Shown in pieces: positions 2 to 11,932 of a stretch of DNA of 64,000 nucleotides (position 1 is its first letter; every line of letters begins with the position of its first letter). Origin of the DNA: an uncultured Prevotella sp. GTDB lineage: Bacteria; Bacteroidota; Bacteroidia; Bacteroidales; Bacteroidaceae. The DNA is taken from assembly GCA_900314995.1 (NCBI GenBank), contig OMXK01000012.1, forward strand, positions 1 to 64,000, given 5' to 3'. The translations under genes were made by a program, and so were the position numbers. Below the pieces are notes generated by a model. It did no database searches and was not told where the DNA came from. It saw only the letters and a program-made list of their open reading frames with translations.

Positions 2-859
2 TACCATATGATAGACATTGCGAGACGAAAGAGAATCTACAAAGAGTTTGAGATAGAAGGGAAGGTGTTTGCCTTCGACTCGACTACCATCGATCTTTGT
101 CTGAGCGTCTTCTGGTGGGCAAGATTTCGCCGTACAAAAGCGGGCATCAAAATGCATACGCTCTATGAAATTCAGACGGATATTCCTACGTTCATACACA
201 TTACCGAGGCGAAAGTCAATGACCAACGCGCAATGGACGAGATTCCCTATGAACAAGGGGCTTACTACGTGTTTGACCGAGGATACTTTGACCTGAAGAA
301 ACTCTATCATATCAATGAGATTGAAGCCTACTTTGTGATAAGGCAGAGAGGAAATCTTCAATATCAAGTCATTAGCGAAAGTGACACCATGCATAATGCT
401 GATGGTATTCTTTCTGACCAGGTTATCAGACTTACGAATTACTTTACCAGACAGAAATATCCTGCCGTTCTTCGTCGCGTCACATACTATGCAACTGACA
501 AGAACAAGACATTTGTCTACCTGACCAACAATATGGAGATACCTGCCACACAGGTTGCTCTCCTTTATAAATATCGTTGGCGCGTAGAGCTTTTCTTTAA
601 ATGGATTAAGCAGCATCTCAAAATCAAATCCTTTTGGGGTACGACAGAGACTGCTGTCAGAATCCAGATATACTCTGCCATCACTGCATATTGCATGGTG
701 GCTATCGTTGAGCACGACATCAAACTGCACAGGAGTACCTACGAAGTGTTGAGAATTTTGAGCGCTTCGCTGTTGGATAAGACTCCTATTAAGGAACTCT
801 TTACCAAGGAACCTGAATATTATGCAGATGACGGTCAATTGACTCTTAATTTTATTTAG
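2..859 (+). CDS. IS4-type transposase, 5' end beyond window
   Basis: This is the C-terminal part of a DDE transposase of the IS4 group. The frame is open to the first base (Tyr-His precede the first visible Met at position 8), so the true start lies before the window. A first catalytic Asp is seen in AFDSTTIDLCLS and a second in YYVFDRGYFDL. The Y-(2)-R-(3)-E-(6)-K signature is met by YKYRWRVELFFKWIK near residue 195, which carries the catalytic Glu. The 3' part of the frame is intact. The right end of the element should lie shortly after the stop, but its terminal repeat cannot be matched because the left end is missing. The element borders an accessory island. Confidence 0.9.
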   Translation, partial: YHMIDIARRKRIYKEFEIEGKVFAFDSTTIDLCLSVFWWARFRRTKAGIKMHTLYEIQTDIPTFIHITEAKVNDQRAMDEIPYEQGAYYVFDRGYFDLKKLYHINEIEAYFVIRQRGNLQYQVISESDTMHNADGILSDQVIRLTNYFTRQKYPAVLRRVTYYATDKNKTFVYLTNNMEIPATQVALLYKYRWRVELFFKWIKQHLKIKSFWGTTETAVRIQIYSAITAYCMVAIVEHDIKLHRSTYEVLRILSASLLDKTPIKELFTKEPEYYADDGQLTLNFI

Positions 860-3283: not shown

Positions 3284-3583
3284 ATGAGAATAGTATCACA
3301 TAGGAAATTGGTTGAATTCTATTGCTCAGAAGGGCATGGAGATTCACAGTCAGCTCTTGAGCGATGGTATGATACCGCAGAGCATGCTGAGTGGAAGAAC
3401 CTGTCGGATATAAAGGTGGATTTCCCTGCAACAGACTATGTAGGTAATCAACATTATGTGTTTAACATCAAAGGTAACAAATATAGGCTTATAGTAGTGG
3501 TTAAGTTCACCATCAGCCATGTTTTCATCCGTTTTGTAGGGACACATAGCGAATATGACAAGATTGACGCATCAACAATATAA
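3284..3583 (+). CDS. higB: HigB-type mRNA interferase toxin
   Basis: A 99-residue protein of the HigB toxin family (RelE-like fold, ribosome-dependent mRNA cleavage). Diagnostic features are an N-terminal HRKLVEFY segment, W-x-N-x-x-D-I (EWKNLSDIKVDFPATDYV) in the middle, FNIKGNKYRLIVVVKF, and the C-terminal VFIRFVGTHSEYDKID, where the T-H-x-x-Y-D ending is characteristic. The antitoxin gene follows after 17 nt. In this toxin-first order the HTH antitoxin usually represses the operon. The length is normal for the family and nothing is missing. Confidence 0.92.
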   Translation: MRIVSHRKLVEFYCSEGHGDSQSALERWYDTAEHAEWKNLSDIKVDFPATDYVGNQHYVFNIKGNKYRLIVVVKFTISHVFIRFVGTHSEYDKIDASTI

Positions 3584-3600
3584 TATAAGGAGGAATGATA

Positions 3601-3963
3601 ATGGGTAAGGTTACTAAAGAACAATATGAGTTTGCGCTTGCTAGAATAGAGGAGCTGCTCCCGTTGGTTGACGATAATACGCCGAGCAACGATCGCAATG
3701 CCGTGGAATTGACGATGATGTCTGATGCCGTTATTGAATACGAAAAAGAGCATTTCCCTATAGGGAAACCGTCTGTTGCAAAATTGATAGAGCTTTCGCT
3801 TGAAGAAAAGCAAATGACTCAAAAGCAGTTAGCTGTTGAAATCGGAGTGAGCCCTTCACGTATCAATGATTATATCTCTGGCCGTGCAGAACCCACTCTA
3901 AAGATAGCCCGCCTGCTCTGTGCTACATTAGGAATATCCCCCGCAGCCATGCTCGGGCTTTAG
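3601..3963 (+). CDS. higA: HigA-type antitoxin with Xre HTH domain
   Basis: Antitoxin partner of HigB, about 120 residues. The N-terminal half is helical and acidic, probably the toxin-binding part. The C-terminal half is a classic Xre helix-turn-helix (MTQKQLAVEIGVSPSRINDYISGRAEPTLKIARLL). I chose the ATG at 3601 because AAGGAGG at 3587-3593 is 7 nt away; the in-frame ATG at 3595 is too close. This is one of few clear Shine-Dalgarno sites in the window. It probably neutralises HigB and represses the promoter at 3246-3275. Confidence 0.92.
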   Translation: MGKVTKEQYEFALARIEELLPLVDDNTPSNDRNAVELTMMSDAVIEYEKEHFPIGKPSVAKLIELSLEEKQMTQKQLAVEIGVSPSRINDYISGRAEPTLKIARLLCATLGISPAAMLGL

Positions 3964-5540: not shown

Positions 5541-6722
5541 ATGAGAAGATATTTATACATCTTACTTTTCGGTATTACTTTGACTGCCTGCTCGACATCT
5601 TCAAAGTATCGCAAGCAGTTGAAAGAGGTGGGAACTATCATTGAAGAAAATCCTGATAGTGCAAAGATATTATTAGATAAGATTCCTGCATCTTTGTTAA
5701 GCCAAGAGGGAGAAAGAGCGTTATACTATTTACTGCAGACGAAGGCAGACTACAAACTACACAAACATTTTTCAAACGATTCTACTATCAATTACTGTGT
5801 GAGATATTACCAAAAGACTAACCAAACAATGCGTCTGGCAATAGCCTATTATTATAAGGGAGTTATAAATTATGAGGAGCTTAACCGAAAGGAATATGCC
5901 GTACATTGTCTCAAGAAAGCAGAAGAACTATCAATTGTGAGTGATAATGAAGCATTAAAGAATAAAATATTTGAGTTGTTTCATCATATATACTATAATG
6001 CGCATAATTACAAATTATCCCTCAAATATGCAAATCTCTTCCTTGAAAGTTCTATGAAGATGGGGGATCCCGAGTTGATTTCAAGGGCATATAAACTCTT
6101 ATCTAACGACAGTGACAAAAGAAGGAATGACGCCTATGGTTATTATGCCAACTTATTATTGGAAGAAAATGCTGCCATCACGGAGAAAGCGCTGACGGAG
6201 CGCAAGAACCTGTGGCTGACTATCGCTGTCGCAGCACTCGCAGTATTGATGATGGCATTTCTCGTCGTTGTCTATCTATCGAGAAAAGCCAAGGAGTATC
6301 GGGGCATCATCGACAAGGACATTGAGCAGATCTATCAGGCGGAGCAGAAGATAGAACTGCTGCAATCCACGGGTAAGGACTATGAGCACGAAGTGAAGAG
6401 GCTGAAAGAACAGATAGACAGACTCAGGGAGACAACTGCTATGGAACTGGGATTGGGCAAGAATGTATATGACATGATTACAGGCGGAGAGATGATTAAG
6501 GATTTCACCAAGTCGAAAGAGCAGGCACTCATCAATTATTATGCCTACACATTCAGCAAGCAGTATCACGGGCTTATCCTGCCCTATCGGAAACTGACAC
6601 TGAGGCTGACCACCTATCTGGTGATGCAGCAGATGGGGCTCGACGACAAAAGAATCTGCGAACTGCTGAATATCACCGATTCAACAGTCCGCAATTACCG
6701 TCACAGGCTTCGCAATCCGTAA
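5541..6722 (+). CDS. Membrane-spanning TPR protein with C-terminal HTH
   Basis: 393 residues. Layout: lipobox LTAC (Cys17); helical TPR-like region about 30-205, probably periplasmic; one membrane span 224-247; coiled coil about 250-298; and a C-terminal helix-turn-helix-like domain 325-393 (LDDKRICELLNITDSTVRNYRHRLR). Proteins of this layout in Bacteroides and Prevotella are thought to be one-component membrane regulators, but targets are unknown. The base composition changes sharply near codon 210 (about 6170), from AT-rich like the island at the left to GC-richer like the genes at the right. The TPR region is also short. The gene may therefore be a hybrid or deletion product. It ends 6 bp from the convergent queF stop. 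Confidence 0.7.
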   Translation: MRRYLYILLFGITLTACSTSSKYRKQLKEVGTIIEENPDSAKILLDKIPASLLSQEGERALYYLLQTKADYKLHKHFSNDSTINYCVRYYQKTNQTMRLAIAYYYKGVINYEELNRKEYAVHCLKKAEELSIVSDNEALKNKIFELFHHIYYNAHNYKLSLKYANLFLESSMKMGDPELISRAYKLLSNDSDKRRNDAYGYYANLLLEENAAITEKALTERKNLWLTIAVAALAVLMMAFLVVVYLSRKAKEYRGIIDKDIEQIYQAEQKIELLQSTGKDYEHEVKRLKEQIDRLRETTAMELGLGKNVYDMITGGEMIKDFTKSKEQALINYYAYTFSKQYHGLILPYRKLTLRLTTYLVMQQMGLDDKRICELLNITDSTVRNYRHRLRNP

Positions 6723-6728
6723 TAACCG

Positions 6729-7229
6729 CTATACCGAGTGATGACTGAGCAACCGCTGCTCGGCCAGTTGCTCGTATTTGGTGCCGGGGCGGCCGTAGTT
6801 GGCGTATGGATAGATGCTGATGCCGCCACGAGGCGTGAAGAGGCCGATGACCTCGATATACTTGGGATCCATGAGTCTGATGAGATCCTTCATGATGATG
6901 TTCACGCAGTCTTCATGGAAATCGCCGTGGTTGCGGAACGAGAAGAGATACAGCTTCAGACTCTTCGACTCCACTATCCGCTCGCCGGGGAGATACATGA
7001 TCTTGATCTCAGCAAAGTCGGGCTGACCCGTGATGGGGCAAAGCGACGTAAACTCGGGGCAGTTGAACTGCACCCAGTAGTCGTTCTCAGGATGCTTGTT
7101 CTGAAACGTTTCCAGCACCTCCGGGGCGTAATCCATCCGATACTCGGTCTTCTTGCCGAGCGCCTTCAGCCCCATTCCCGAGCGGGGCTCGCCTACCCGT
7201 TGCCTTTCATTTTCTCTGTCTGTACTCAT
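6729..7229 (-). CDS. queF: NADPH-dependent preQ0 reductase QueF
   Basis: Reduces 7-cyano-7-deazaguanine (preQ0) to preQ1 in queuosine biosynthesis. It is the short (unimodular) type, 166 residues. The catalytic Cys64 lies in [12 protein letters not shown] with Asp71 following. The NADPH/substrate motif ESKS is at 87-90, and the FRNHGDFHE segment (His101, His105, Glu106) completes the active site. The start overlaps the yhhQ stop by 4 nt (ATGA), so the two are translationally coupled. Both lie downstream of the preQ1-I riboswitch at 7922-7968. Confidence 0.96.
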
Positions 7230-7918
7230 AGTTCTTTCACCTTAAATATATTATAAGTCACATCCTTGTCGAACACATCCTCGTGGTCGTGGAGTTTCGT
7301 AAACTTCACCACTCGGATGGTAATCGGCAACACCAATATCTCGTAAAGCGTCTTCAGCGTCACTTGCGTGATCACCAGCGACGGCATCTCCTCCCAGGGA
7401 ATCACGCCACCCAGGGCCAGCGGGAAGAAGATGACAGAGTCGGTCAATTCGCCGAAGATCGTACTCAGCACCGCACGACGGGAGAAGTTACGACCATCTG
7501 ACGAGAGCTTCATCCGGCTCATCACGTAGGCATTCATGAACGAGCCGCAAATAAAGGCCAGGAACGAAGCGCCGGCGATACGCGGAGCCAGACCGAAGAT
7601 CTGGTGGAAGCCCTCTTCTCCGTGCCAATAGGGAGCACCCGGAATCCAGTCGGCGATGGCGCCGAAGGCCACAAACAGGAAGTTCATCGCAAATCCCATC
7701 CAGATGAGCAGGCGGGTGCGGCCATAGCCCCATACCTCGCACACCACATCGTTGATGATGTAACTCACGGGGAACACAATCAGACCTGCCGTCATGTTTG
7801 CCGGTCCAAAAGAGATTTGCTTAGTCTCGAGCACGTTTGCCGTAATCAGGCATACGCAGAACAGTATGCCGTAAAACATAAACAGCACACTGATTTTTTG
7901 TTCAGTTCTATTTTTCAT
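7226..7918 (-). CDS. yhhQ: Queuosine precursor transporter (YhhQ/VUT family)
   Basis: 230-residue inner-membrane protein with about six hydrophobic spans. Family signatures are [18 protein letters not shown] near the N terminus, [21 protein letters not shown], and the C-terminal [20 protein letters not shown]. YhhQ proteins import preQ0/preQ1. Pairing with queF fits salvage of preQ0 that is then reduced in the cell. The ATG (7918) directly follows the A-rich tail of the preQ1-I riboswitch, so translation of this gene should respond to preQ1. Confidence 0.94.
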
Positions 7919-7921
7919 TTT

Positions 7922-7968
7922 CTTGTTTTGTTAAAGGGGGTTAGCCCGAAGGCGTCGCAAGTACCCCT
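7922..7968 (-). promoter_or_regulatory. preQ1-I riboswitch, translational, with extended loop
   Basis: In the minus-strand RNA, AGGGG pairs with CCCCU (P1). CUUG just after P1 pairs with CAAG at the far end of the A-rich tail (P2), forming an H-type pseudoknot. The tail UUAACAAAACAAG is identical to that of the well-studied Thermoanaerobacter preQ1-I aptamer, and an unpaired C after UAA precedes the P1 3' strand, as expected for the ligand-binding C. The loop between P2 and P1 is longer than usual and holds a GCC-UUCG-GGC mini-hairpin. The tail abuts the yhhQ ATG, so ligand binding would hide the A-rich initiation region. No T-run is present, arguing for translational control. Confidence 0.88.
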
Positions 7969-7979
7969 ATGATTATACA

Positions 7980-8963
7980 TTACAATAGCCAGATAAGCCA
8001 GCCCATATAGGCCAGGAAACCGCCAATCAGCACGAATCCCTCCCTACGTGATACCGAATACTTGGTGAAGGCGAAAAGCCACAACAGTCCCACACTCACC
8101 AGCATCATCATCAGGTCGATGATGGTGATACCCATGATGCGCAAGGGATGAACCGCAGCCGTCACACCGAGGATCATCAGGATATTGAAGACATTTGAGC
8201 CGATGACGTTGCCGATGGCAATGGCGGAACGACCCTTATAGGCTGCCACCACGCTCGTGGCAAGCTCGGGCAGCGACGTGCCGCCAGCCACGATGGTCAG
8301 ACCGACAACGCTCGGACGCACACCGAAACGATAGGCCACATAAGTAGCGGCATCAACGAAAAGGTTACTGCCGACGATCAGACAGGCCAGTCCCAGCACG
8401 ATCATCGAGAGATTGCGCCACAACTTTGAATAGTCCTTCGGCATCTCCTTGAGATCCTCGCGCTCCTCCTCCGTGGGCATCAGACCCTCTTTCTTCGCAG
8501 CATTGAACGTGTAGACCATAAAGACCAGGAAGCCTGTCAACAGGATGAAACCGTCGCTACGGCTGATCTCGTTACCCCAAAGGTGAGGCGAGTCCATATC
8601 GTCGAAGCAGAGCATAAACAGCAAGATGGATGCAATCACCGCAAAGGGGATATCCTTCTTGACAGTCGACTTGGCTACTGCCATCGGCGCCACCACAGCC
8701 GAACAGCCCACGATGAGCATCGTATTGAAGATGTTGGAACCTATGACATTACCCACAGCCAGATCAGCCGTTCCCTTGAAGGCCGACACCATACTGACGA
8801 ACAGTTCAGGAGCCGACGTTCCGGCTGCCACGATGGTCAAACCGATGATGATCTCAGGCACGTTCATTCCGCGAGCCAACGAGGCGGCGCCGTCTGTCAG
8901 ACGGTCTGCTCCCCAGATAACGAGGGCTACGCCTACTACAATAAATACAATGTTCAGCAACAT
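7980..8963 (-). CDS. Calcium/sodium antiporter, YrbG-like CaCA family
   Basis: 327 residues, about ten membrane spans in two homologous halves. Each half carries an alpha-repeat: GTSAPELFVSMVSAFKGTAD with GNVIGSNIFNT in the first, and GGTSLPELATSVVAAYKGRS with GNVIGSNVFNILM in the second. The acidic Glu in each PEL motif binds the cation. A charged cytoplasmic loop (EEEREDLKEMPKDY) separates the halves. It lies 19 nt after the S4-protein gene and 61 nt before yhhQ, inside the same operon. Confidence 0.93.
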   Translation of the reverse strand: MLLNIVFIVVGVALVIWGADRLTDGAASLARGMNVPEIIIGLTIVAAGTSAPELFVSMVSAFKGTADLAVGNVIGSNIFNTMLIVGCSAVVAPMAVAKSTVKKDIPFAVIASILLFMLCFDDMDSPHLWGNEISRSDGFILLTGFLVFMVYTFNAAKKEGLMPTEEEREDLKEMPKDYSKLWRNLSMIVLGLACLIVGSNLFVDAATYVAYRFGVRPSVVGLTIVAGGTSLPELATSVVAAYKGRSAIAIGNVIGSNVFNILMILGVTAAVHPLRIMGITIIDLMMMLVSVGLLWLFAFTKYSVSRREGFVLIGGFLAYMGWLIWLL

Positions 8964-8982
8964 ATCTTTTACTTTTAATCAT

Positions 8983-9420
8983 CTAGTCTTCATCATCACT
9001 GTCCCAGTCTTCATCGAAGAAACTGTCGAAGTCGCCCTCCAGCGAGGGACCGACGAAAGCATCCATCGCCCGACGGTCTTTCTTTGTAGGGCGCCCCGTA
9101 CCTCTGGCACGGTTTACGAAACCGCTGATGCGGTTCATCTCCAGCAACTCGTACTGATCGGGAGTTGTCACATTCTCATATACCTCGGGCAGCAGCTTAG
9201 CCCCTACCCGCTGTTCGATAGGCTTCAGAATCTTAAAGGAATAGGTCACCGGCGGCTTGCGCACACAAACGGTCTCACCGGCCTTCACGGTATGCGAAGG
9301 CTTCACGTTCACCCCGCCGATCATCACGCGGCCATTCTTACAGGCATCGGCTGCAATAGAGCGGGTCTTGAAGATCCGCGCTGCCCAGAGCCATTTGTCG
9401 ATACGTGCTACCTCTCCCAT
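8983..9420 (-). CDS. S4-domain RNA-binding protein (Hsp15/HslR-like)
   Basis: 145 residues. The N-terminal S4 domain (RIDKWLWAARIFKTRSIAAD, GRVMIGGVNVKPSHTVKAGE) is that of Hsp15, which binds free 50S subunits carrying nascent chains. The basic segment GRPTKKDRRAMD is followed by a very acidic tail (DFDSFFDEDWDSDDED). The start is 1 nt after the pth stop. The context with pth (peptidyl-tRNA release) and rplY fits a role in rescuing stalled ribosomes. Confidence 0.9.
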   Translation of the reverse strand: MGEVARIDKWLWAARIFKTRSIAADACKNGRVMIGGVNVKPSHTVKAGETVCVRKPPVTYSFKILKPIEQRVGAKLLPEVYENVTTPDQYELLEMNRISGFVNRARGTGRPTKKDRRAMDAFVGPSLEGDFDSFFDEDWDSDDED

Positions 9421-9421
9421 C

Positions 9422-9994
9422 CTATTTCTTGCCTAACTTGTTATACTGGTTCATCGTGACGTCGATGCCTGCCAGCACGAAACTCTTGATGATCTCCACA
9501 GCCGTGTCGATGCTCGGCTGCAACTCTTTCAGTTCTTCTTCACTATACTTGCCCAGCACCCACTCTACCTGCATGCCACGGGGGAAGTCGTTGCCGATCC
9601 CCATACGCAGTCGGGCATAGTCCTGCCCGATGAGCTGCTGGATGTGGCCCAGGCCGTTATGCCCGCCGTTAGAACCGCTGGCCTTCAGGCGGAATGCACC
9701 CAGCGGCAGCGCCACCTCGTCGCTGATCACCAGCAGGCGGCTCTGCTCGATGTTCTCCTTGTTCAGCCAGTAGCGCACGGCATTGCCACTCAGATTCATA
9801 AACGTCGAGGGCTTGAGCAGGAAGACCTTACGCCCCTTGAGCGACGTCTCGGCTACGAAACCGTAGCGACGGTCTTCAAAATGAATATTGGACGCCTCCG
9901 CAAAGGCATCCAATACCATAAACCCTGTATTGTGGCGGGTCATCGCGTATTCATCACCGATGTTTCCCAAGCCGACAATCAAGTATTTGTCCAT
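9422..9994 (-). CDS. pth: Peptidyl-tRNA hydrolase
   Basis: 190 residues, the usual bacterial Pth1 length. It cleaves peptidyl-tRNA released from ribosomes. N-terminal [18 protein letters not shown] contains the catalytic His21; [16 protein letters not shown] and [12 protein letters not shown] are the other family blocks with active-site Asn and His residues. It follows rplY by 24 nt, a gene order widespread in bacteria. Confidence 0.97.
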
Positions 9995-10018
9995 TCCCTA
10001 GACGCGTTTTGAGATTGA

Positions 10019-10621
10019 TTACTCGGCGTCTTCACCTGCAGCAGCTGCAGAACGAGAAGCACGTGTAGCCTTCACAGAGCATACAACAACCTGGGCAGGT
10101 GTTGAGATCTCCAGACCCTCAAACTTCAGGTCAGCCACCTTGATAACCTTGCCAAGCTTCAGCTCGGTAACGTCGATATCAAGCACAGCGGGAATCTGCT
10201 TGTAGGGAGCTGTTACATTCAGCGTACGGACAGCCTGGCTCAGACGACCACCATCGCGAACACCCTGTGCGTGACCGTTCAGCTTCACGGGGATACCGAT
10301 TGTGATGGGCTTCGTCTCGTTTACCTCGTAGAAGTCAACGTGCATCACAGCGTCTGTTGTCGGATGGAACTGCAGCTCCTTCATCACAGCCTTGTGAGCC
10401 TCGCCGTCGACAGTCAGGTTGACAACATAAACGTCGGGAGAATAAACGACCTTGCGGAGCTGGGAAGCGGGAATAGAGAATGCCATTGCCTCGGGCAGAC
10501 CGTTCTCACCTTTCTTCTCACCATACAGATTGCAAGGGATCAAGCCCTGCTTACGCATCTCTTTGCTGGCCTTCTTGCCAGTTGTGGCACGCTTCTGGCC
10601 ACTAACGCTAATTTCTTTCAT
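10019..10621 (-). CDS. rplY: 50S ribosomal protein L25/Ctc
   Basis: 200 residues. The N-terminal L25 domain (5S rRNA binding; KEISVSGQKRATTGKKASKE, GLIPCNLYG) is followed by the TL5/Ctc C-terminal domain (PVKLNGHAQGVRDGGRLSQA). A Ser/Ala-rich acidic end follows. This is the long, CTC-type form normal for Bacteroidetes. It is the first gene of a long minus-strand operon and has a clear promoter at 10711-10742. Confidence 0.97.
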   Translation of the reverse strand: MKEISVSGQKRATTGKKASKEMRKQGLIPCNLYGEKKGENGLPEAMAFSIPASQLRKVVYSPDVYVVNLTVDGEAHKAVMKELQFHPTTDAVMHVDFYEVNETKPITIGIPVKLNGHAQGVRDGGRLSQAVRTLNVTAPYKQIPAVLDIDVTELKLGKVIKVADLKFEGLEISTPAQVVVCSVKATRASRSAAAAGEDAE

Positions 10622-10710
10622 AATTGTGTTACTCTAAATTAAGTTGTTAATACCTTATTGCTTAATTCGCCATCACACGAATAATCGTAGTGCTTTGAGA
10701 AAAAGCGGTG

Positions 10711-10742
10711 CAAAGGTAGTGCTTTTTCCCTTACGAACCAAA
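10711..10742 (-). promoter_or_regulatory. rplY operon promoter
   Basis: Minus-strand TTTG (forward 10739-10742) and TACCTTTG (forward 10711-10718) are 20 nt apart. The 5' leader is about 85 nt. It probably drives rplY through queF, since no other clear promoter is seen between those genes. Confidence 0.75.
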
Positions 10743-10779
10743 TATTTGCCTAAAAAAACTCAATATTTTCCTCTTTTTC

Positions 10780-10810
10780 TTGCATTATCTCAGAAAAATA
10801 ACTACCTTTG
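10780..10810 (+). promoter_or_regulatory. nusB operon promoter
   Basis: TTG at 10780-10782 and TACCTTTG at 10803-10810 are 20 nt apart. The promoter lies back to back with that of rplY. Confidence 0.7.
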
Positions 10811-10867
10811 CACGTACAAAAGCAATTAAAAATAGGTATAATTAGAATCTAAAATGCATCAAGTGAG

Positions 10868-11932
10868 ATGATTAACAGAGAAATTATCAGAATCAAGATT
10901 GTTCAGTTAACCTACGCTTACTATCAAAACGGTAACAAGAACATCGACTCGGCTGAGAAAGAATTATTCTTCAGTCTGTCAAAGGCTTATGACCTTTACA
11001 ATTACCTGTTGGCCCTTATTGTGGCAGTAACCAAGGAAGCCAATCGCCGCAACGAAGTGCTGCAGGCTCGCGCCCAGAGAGAAGGGCTGCCCATGCCCCC
11101 GCAGAAGTTCGTCCTTAACCGATTTGCCCTCCAGCTCAGCGAGAACAAGGCACTCTTGGAGTTCTTGGAGACCCAGAAGTTTGCATGGGCCGACCACGAT
11201 GCCTTCCTCGGGCAGCTCCTGGAGCACATCGAGGCCAGCGCCATCTACCAGGAATACATGGAGAGCGATGAGGACAATTACGAAGCCGACAGGGAACTGT
11301 GGCGAAAGCTCTATAAGACATTCATCGTCGAAAACCAAGACCTCGACGCCATTCTCGAGGAAGCCAGCCTCTATTGGAACGACGACAAGGAGATCGTCGA
11401 CACCTTCGTGCTGAAGACCATCAAGCGATTCAACGAGCAGGAAGGCACAAAGCAGGAGCTGCTGCCCGAATGGGACAGCGAGGACGAGAAGGACTTCGCC
11501 CGCAAGCTCTTCCGTGCCGCCATTCTCAACGCCGACCAATACCAGCGCGCTATGAGCGACACCTCGCGCAACTGGGACTTCTCGCGACTGGCCTATATGG
11601 ATATCATCCTCATGCAGATTGCCATTGCCGAGATGATGACATTCCCCAATATTCCCATCAGCGTGACGATCAACGAATATGTCGATCTGGCAAAGCTCTA
11701 CTCCACCCGCAAGAGCAGCGGCTACATCAACGGCATGCTCGACGGCATCGCCCGCAACCTGATTAAGACAGGCCGCCTGATGAAGCACATGGACCCCAAG
11801 CCCGGCAAGGAGAATGGTGCCCCCGCACCTGAAGACAAGGAAGCCCAAGCCCAGCAGGAACGCCCCGTCAAGATGAGGCATCGCATCAAGAGGCCGTCAA
11901 CAGGCCCCAACCCTAAGAAAAAAGAGGATTAA
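10868..11932 (+). CDS. nusB: Transcription antitermination factor NusB (long form)
   Basis: 354 residues, longer than the 140-150 of most NusB but normal for Bacteroidetes. MINREIIRIKIVQLTYAYYQ opens the protein. The NusB RNA-binding fold is in the second half (FARKLFRAAILNADQY, WDFSRLAYMDIILMQIAIAEM, ISVTINEYVDLAKLYSTRKS, YINGMLDGIARNL). The C-terminal tail is charged, ending PNPKKKED. It binds boxA with S10/NusE in rRNA antitermination. First gene of nusB-yajC-ybbR-coaE-DUF5606. Confidence 0.95.
   Translation: MINREIIRIKIVQLTYAYYQNGNKNIDSAEKELFFSLSKAYDLYNYLLALIVAVTKEANRRNEVLQARAQREGLPMPPQKFVLNRFALQLSENKALLEFLETQKFAWADHDAFLGQLLEHIEASAIYQEYMESDEDNYEADRELWRKLYKTFIVENQDLDAILEEASLYWNDDKEIVDTFVLKTIKRFNEQEGTKQELLPEWDSEDEKDFARKLFRAAILNADQYQRAMSDTSRNWDFSRLAYMDIILMQIAIAEMMTFPNIPISVTINEYVDLAKLYSTRKSSGYINGMLDGIARNLIKTGRLMKHMDPKPGKENGAPAPEDKEAQAQQERPVKMRHRIKRPSTGPNPKKKED

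Follow-up and report, generated by a model that had tools for sequence, protein, structure and literature searches.

On the minus strand of the window (the whole 64,000-nucleotide stretch of uncultured Prevotella sp. DNA that was analysed), directly ahead of yhhQ, we identified what is probably a class I, type II preQ1 riboswitch controlling translation without a Shine–Dalgarno (SD) sequence. The 61 bases between the stop codon of the upstream exchanger gene (7982–7980) and the yhhQ AUG (7918–7916) hold the whole element, which reads, from 7968 to 7916, AGGGG-UA-CUUG-CGACGCCUUCGGGCUAA-C-CCCCU-UUAACAAAA-CAAG-AAA-AUG. Two perfect helices make up an H-type pseudoknot, P1 (AGGGG, 7964–7968, with CCCCU, 7935–7939) and P2 (CUUG, 7958–7961, with CAAG, 7922–7925), at the positions where an earlier note on this DNA had placed them; both are backed by covariation among relatives. 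Between them lie L1 (UA, 7962–7963), the U of which is invariant in two alignments of relatives, A1 (34 rows) and A4 (54 rows), an expanded L2 (7941–7957) and an A-rich L3 (7926–7934). L2 is 17 nt long, in keeping with the length of about 17 given previously, and contains a mini-hairpin at 7944–7953 composed of GCC (7953–7951), UUCG (7950–7947) and GGC (7946–7944). The C expected to read preQ1 (7940), with an A before it, immediately precedes the P1 3′ strand. Relative to the start codon, L3 spans −16 to −8 and CAAG −7 to −4, with AAA separating CAAG from the AUG.

Comparative sequence analysis confirms that this element is real. A loose anatomical matcher recognized only one of the 91 ORF starts in the window, namely the element itself, whilst the controls gave 5 acceptances among 437 further ORF starts at the named loci and, for shuffled leaders scanned without the 30-base slack, 13 among 1380; much the same matcher recognized 92 of 99 yhhQ leaders from the genus, compared with ∼1 % in controls. 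Were there no riboswitch at all, and an A-rich initiation region simply lay beside a GC-rich hairpin by chance, one might expect the ordinary minimum free energy that RNAfold returns for this stretch (z = −0.12, for nested folds only, in which a pseudoknot is not representable), as well as the recurrence of A-rich tails on their own, such as that at G000:C49:47860–47927 (22.6 bits). Such a coincidence is nevertheless extremely improbable given the ∼1 % control rate, the compensated changes in P1 and the placement of the element before four different Q-pathway genes.

Conservation and helix covariation across the genus

YhhQ was present in 99 of the 150 genus genomes searched, and its closest named relatives among the best matches listed belong to Prevotella MAGs and isolates, at 90–93 % identity. 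Our leader survey covered 99 places in 98 genomes (30 from loci and 69 fetched leaders), leaving out G027, the gene of which is fragmentary, and, for the split gene of G083, its second piece. The element was found in 92 of these leaders, counting one (L220) in which it is only probable. The 5′ strand of P1 was GGGG in 43, AGAG in 29, GGAG in 11, CGAG in six and UGGG in three, and P1 covaries as GGGG/CCCC, AGAG/CUCU, GGAG/CUCC, CGAG/CUCG and UGGG/CCCA; that the partners pair in all 92 (G–U allowed) is a requirement of the matcher.

Covariation was assessed in A4, an alignment of 54 sequences, most of which had been chosen by a matcher demanding four P1 pairs and AC, and therefore the absence of broken pairs in P1 is partly a product of selection. 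Two UGGG-type sequences misaligned by MAFFT (L181 and L203) and one other sequence (L130) were dropped before pairs were counted, and L200, likewise UGGG-type, never entered. Overall, 93.0 % of helix cells pair, with one P1 pair being GC in 24, AU in 23 and CG in seven of the 54 sequences, and another AU in 39 and GC in 15. The covariation score was 0.263, vs 0.093 for shuffles (none of 500 reaching the true value) and ≤ 0.135 in slid registers. Compensation in P2 was seen as UA to AU in one of 54 sequences and CG to AU in two; the compensated variants include CUAG/CUAG in L210 and AUAG/CUAU in L220, which lies outside A4. Of the 54, 26 lack the fifth P1 pair, six the outer P2 pair and two the next P2 pair, and the measure based on further pair types is not above the shuffled level (190 of 500). 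Among the rows of A4 that the matcher did not pick are three relatives from this and other genera of the family (L127, L128 and L129), found by the covariance model R1, which carry AGAG/CUCU, GGAG/CUCC and CGAG/CUCG. The earlier note had held that a lack of P1 and P2 covariation would speak against a riboswitch; across the 54 sequences covariation is present, strong in P1 and confined to three cells in P2.

No accepted element was present in seven of the 99 genus yhhQ leaders and in 14 of 80 named loci, L087 (with a degenerate loop) and L058 (a remnant) being counted amongst the latter; the element is thus dispensable. The L058 remnant, at about 1470–1503 and ahead of yhhQ, consists of AGGGG followed directly by AACAAAACAAG, as if the loop and the P1 3′ strand had been lost.

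Type assignment, family models and associated genes

The two letters before the P1 3′ strand set the type of a class I element, with AC marking type II and UC type I, according to the cited passages of PMC11625349, which take their types from McCown et al. (2014). AC is found in the window and in all 34 rows of A1, which were picked without requiring it; the leader matcher demands AC, and its 92 elements are no independent support on this point. Exceptions are L259, a queF element from G059 reading CAUCCCC (AU or UC), and the degenerate L087. The A-rich L3 and tail typical of type II are likewise present, as UUAACAAAACAAG is identical over 13 nt to the tail of the Thermoanaerobacter (Tte) type II aptamer, CUGGGUCGCAGUAACCCCAGUUAACAAAACAAGGG, as printed in the cited part of PMC10639078, a likeness already pointed out in the earlier note. 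Judged by its sequence relationships, the element belongs with the class I preQ1 riboswitches of type II and lies under the Rfam cut-off; the original proposal of a preQ1-I riboswitch is supported by the P1 and P2 covariation, and type II is the subtype to which it should be assigned. Type I (UC) preQ1-I-like elements, GACAGUUCG..AUCCUGUC..AAAACUAG, occur below the Rfam cut-off in other Bacteroidales families (L132, L137 and L140, at about 1501–1547), where they precede queC (by NCBIfam in L132, by reading in the others). L134 and L146 look like L132-type (UC) elements; no ORF was parsed there.

In the RF00522 covariance search proposed in the earlier note, run over 301 bases (7800–8100), the model aligns full-length to the element, but at 21.1 bits (E = 0.036) vs a cut-off of 39 bits, and at the gathering threshold Rfam calls nothing in the window, a gathering score being an operating cut-off and not a structural definition. 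RF00522 also found no match at E = 0.001 over the organism's own genome, stayed below its cut-off of 39 bits at each of the 19 loci to which it was applied (best score 29.6), gave no match up to E = 10 at 11 of these and exceeded the cut-off in none of 295 genomes of the order. Four insert-free elements (L175, L074, L053 and L142) score 24.4–29.6 bits with this model. As there are related species without the insert, the long L2 does not argue for another family, and preQ1-II (RF01054) and preQ1-III (RF02680) were rejected, since only RF00522 among the preQ1 families appears at E ≤ 10 in 7800–8100.

Our first covariance model, R1, was built mostly on GGGG-type sequences and recovered a small number of relatives: 15 of 301 in the family and three of 395 in the phylum, these being the window, L116 and L117, of which the last two were rejected as elements because no P1 is visible in either. 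Over the organism's own genome it found no further strong element; the one match (L115, 22.6 bits, E = 0.19), at the G000:C49 position given above, precedes an unrelated protein that reads as secreted and is probably chance. Because R1 missed many AGAG, CGAG and GGAG types, a second model, R2, was built on the 54 relatives of A4, with the window left out. R2 scores the window element at 40.7 bits (E = 1.7 × 10−7 for the genome) and at E = 0.1 has matches in 224 of the 299 genomes of the genus, although the weak matches include chance ones, as which we read G1167:C13 and G1212:C36. The viral contigs searched held no matching stretch.

The genes downstream belong to the preQ1 pathway, as had been claimed: yhhQ (7226–7918, minus strand; PF02592, TIGR00697) encodes a queuosine precursor transporter and queF (6729–7229, minus strand; PF14489, TIGR03139), which overlaps it by 4 bases, the preQ1 synthase QueF-II, both over their family cut-offs. 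The genome also encodes QueC and TGT. Elsewhere, the element stands directly before queF in L254, L256 and L259 (by NCBIfam) and in L255, L257, L258 and L263 (by reading), before queD in L251 (TIGR03367) and before queC in L142 (TIGR00364), a genome of another Bacteroidales family; yhhQ, queF, queD and queC all score over the NCBIfam cut-offs. Six genomes with queF elements (G057, G059, G096, G127, G129 and G140) are among the 150 searched and not among the 99 with YhhQ, several being incomplete assemblies. One regulator ahead of four genes of one pathway is hard to explain except by a metabolite of that pathway, and the element very probably senses the tRNA-modification precursor preQ1. The gene set would fit any Q-pathway signal, so that a conserved pseudoknot sensing a related compound (preQ0 or queuine) or a protein might be envisaged instead, and for the Tte aptamer the preference for preQ1 over preQ0 amounts to no more than 17-fold (PMC10622847, cited passage). 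However, the letters that read preQ1 in known class I aptamers are kept, with the U after P1, the AC before the P1 3′ strand and the A-rich L3 all invariant in A1, and we consider a different ligand improbable, preQ0 being the one that could take the place of preQ1.

Hairpin inserts and tandem copies

In CUUG-type elements L2 measures 3–5 nt without an insert and 16–51 nt with one. Inserts were present in 17 of the 92 genus elements and in 24 of 66 elements at the 80 named loci, two sets that overlap. The 3 bp UUCG hairpin of the window is not significant alone (P = 0.14 vs dinucleotide shuffles), and its support thus comes from relatives: for 20 representatives of 29 distinct inserts, the combined P-value against such shuffles was 1.7 × 10−10 (the inserts not being fully independent). 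Stems vary in their letters, examples being GCC/GGC, GUC/GAC, CCUAA/UUAGG and GCCGGUGA/UCACCGGC. When 3′ halves were permuted among species for 18 single-hairpin inserts (20 distinct ones less the near-copies L059 and L005), none of 2000 permutations reached the true summed stem length (80, vs a permuted mean of 62), and likewise none the true duplex energy; the insert's own half ranked first in only five of 18 cases, and that of the window ninth. Of nine distinct inserts of at least 32 nt, eight fold as two hairpins in a row. The L2 hairpin noticed in the window is thereby real as a class, its own insert being one of many different ones.

When the insert label is mapped on a YhhQ tree of the 80 named loci, 17 changes are required (shuffled mean 21.0), of which well-supported branches force 11 or more, and the close sisters L047 and L059 differ in the presence of the insert. 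By these sequence comparisons, L2 inserts are gained and lost many times, and the hairpin appears to be an insertion that is tolerated, and used again and again, at the point separating P2 from the AC pocket bases. L3 also carries inserts, in L009, L027, L050/L054, L060, L092 and L176 (L027 having them in both loops), which fold as hairpins as judged by eye. Those of L009, L050, L060 and L176 start alike, with TTTCGCT or TCTCGCT, three contain GCTCGCG, and they resemble a short palindromic repeat element. Neither L2 hairpins nor Prevotella preQ1-I elements turned up in our search of the open-licence literature.

Furthermore, by eye, three complete elements stand in a row before yhhQ in L178 (G012; within the last 110 bases) and L261/L268 (G1265), and two in tandem in L188 (G108) and L253 (G1136), each copy keeping four P1 pairs, CUUG/CAAG and AC; the model search scores three copies in G012, two each in G1265 and G1136, and one in G108. 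In this they resemble the tandem riboswitches surveyed in PMC9481103 (2022), but Table 3 of that survey places preQ1-I, II and III among the classes not found in tandem.

Operon position and initiation without a Shine–Dalgarno sequence

The element sits within a run of six genes on the minus strand, its P1 beginning 11 nt past the stop codon of the Na/Ca exchanger family gene (7980–8963), which is itself preceded by genes for an S4-domain protein, peptidyl-tRNA hydrolase and ribosomal protein L25 (8983–10621). A TAnnTTTG box (TACCTTTG, 10711–10718, minus strand; consensus as given in the cited part of PMC7366714) lies ahead of the L25 gene and is the only exact one on the minus strand between 5670 and 15282, making it the probable promoter of the run; there is none near the element in the stretch scanned. 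A scan for Escherichia coli type promoters gave matches no better than shuffles. A simple scan of 6700–11000 found one terminator-like site (8351–8335, inside the exchanger gene), fewer than in shuffles. The mid-operon position described in the earlier note therefore stands, and, with neither a TAnnTTTG box nor a terminator-like site adjacent, control would be local to the last two genes, as that note proposed; a terminating ribosome may also cover P1, given the 11-base distance. Elsewhere the arrangement differs: a TAnnTTTG box lies ≤ 70 bases upstream of P1 in 53 of the 92 leaders (at 14–20 bases in 37), compared with two of 90 control windows, so that there the switch would open its own transcript. 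Elsewhere in the window, a HigB-family toxin gene (PF09907) is followed by a helix-turn-helix gene (PF01381) at 3284–3963 (plus strand), which is likely a HigBA-type toxin–antitoxin pair, and a transposase with a DDE domain (PF01609) occupies 8–859 (plus strand) at the window edge.

As the earlier note had recognized, the start site is SD-free: the leader contains no AGGA, GGAG or GAGG. The same holds for the last 18 bases of 82 of the 92 leaders, the other ten having AGGA-like letters. Expression in Prevotella bryantii TC1-1 does not change when an SD is added or removed, whilst structure at the site lowers it (PMC3155529, cited passages), and in Flavobacterium the initiation rate is tuned by structure and by which bases occupy −3, −6, −12 and −13 (PMC6847099, likewise). 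The window has A at −3, −6 and −13 and C at −12; as −6 falls within P2 and −13 within L3, closure of the pseudoknot would hide what Bacteroidota ribosomes use. Translational riboswitches have a precedent in Bacteroides, in a cited preprint on TPP. We thus envisage that plentiful preQ1, the product of QueF, would dock in the pocket at C7940; that CAAG would then pair with CUUG, closing the pseudoknot (a structure supported by comparison) and laying L3 along P1; and that the unstructured, A-rich SD substitute would thereby be withdrawn from the ribosome, repressing yhhQ and the overlapping queF from a position inside the six-gene run. The point at which the UUCG hairpin exits the pseudoknot would lie after P2 and ahead of the AC pocket bases, where relatives carry hairpins of various kinds.

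The same riboswitch might instead act mainly on transcription, through pausing or through exposure of untranslated RNA to Rho. The pseudoknot forms close behind the polymerase, and preQ1-dependent pausing is described for the Bacillus subtilis riboswitch (PMC11625349, cited part). Terminator-based control was rejected, however, as the simple scan found no terminator-like site beside the element, and P2 ends 3 nt before the AUG in 51 of the 92 leaders, which is the geometry of an initiation block. A block of translation could itself be followed by Rho effects of similar appearance downstream; we therefore regard a mainly transcriptional action as improbable and favour control of translation.

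Compared with characterized systems, the element is most readily set beside the translational type II switch of Thermoanaerobacter tengcongensis, with which it shares a five-pair P1, AC, the UUAACAAAACAAG tail and a place beside the start codon. However, the Tte element buries two SD nucleotides where this one has no SD, and its P2 is separated from the reading C by 3 nt (UAA) in place of a 17 nt L2 with a hairpin; some relatives with UCGAUG loops (e.g. L053 and L064) have a weak, Tte-like P2. Four Watson–Crick P2 pairs, AC and an A-rich tail are shared with the type II element of B. subtilis, which, in contrast, uses transcription termination. The E. coli type III element resembles it as a class I pseudoknot controlling yhhQ at the start site, but its P1 is flanked by UU and its AAGG tail serves as the SD, features that are both missing here.

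According to a regulon survey of 2013, preQ1 riboswitches are for the most part confined to Firmicutes (PMC3766115, cited passage), whilst the 2024 review PMC11625349 already lists Bacteroidota for types I and II, a range drawn from McCown et al. (2014) and another paper; Bacteroidota as a phylum are thus not new for preQ1-I. More tentatively, and with less confidence than doubt, we suggest that the Prevotella riboswitch could be a modular SD-free initiation switch in which the L2 port gains, replaces or loses one or two hairpins (for tuning or as a second input), L3 accepts hairpins, and aptamers are chained two to three deep, upstream copies closing the ribosome standby site and sharpening the response. 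The cited part of the 2024 review predicts riboswitches on SD-free mRNAs and calls finding them a future challenge; the Prevotella elements would be a family of that kind, in which three bases usually separate P2 from the start codon, and their hosts are related to a Prevotella strain where the SD has been shown not to matter. They would make the indirect-occlusion model testable with natural constructs that are SD-free, with or without L2 and L3 hairpins, and single, double or triple, and the natural insertions at the edge of the ligand pocket would provide a set for aptamer engineering. Common as the riboswitch is in this genus, the Rfam model misses it at every locus tested.
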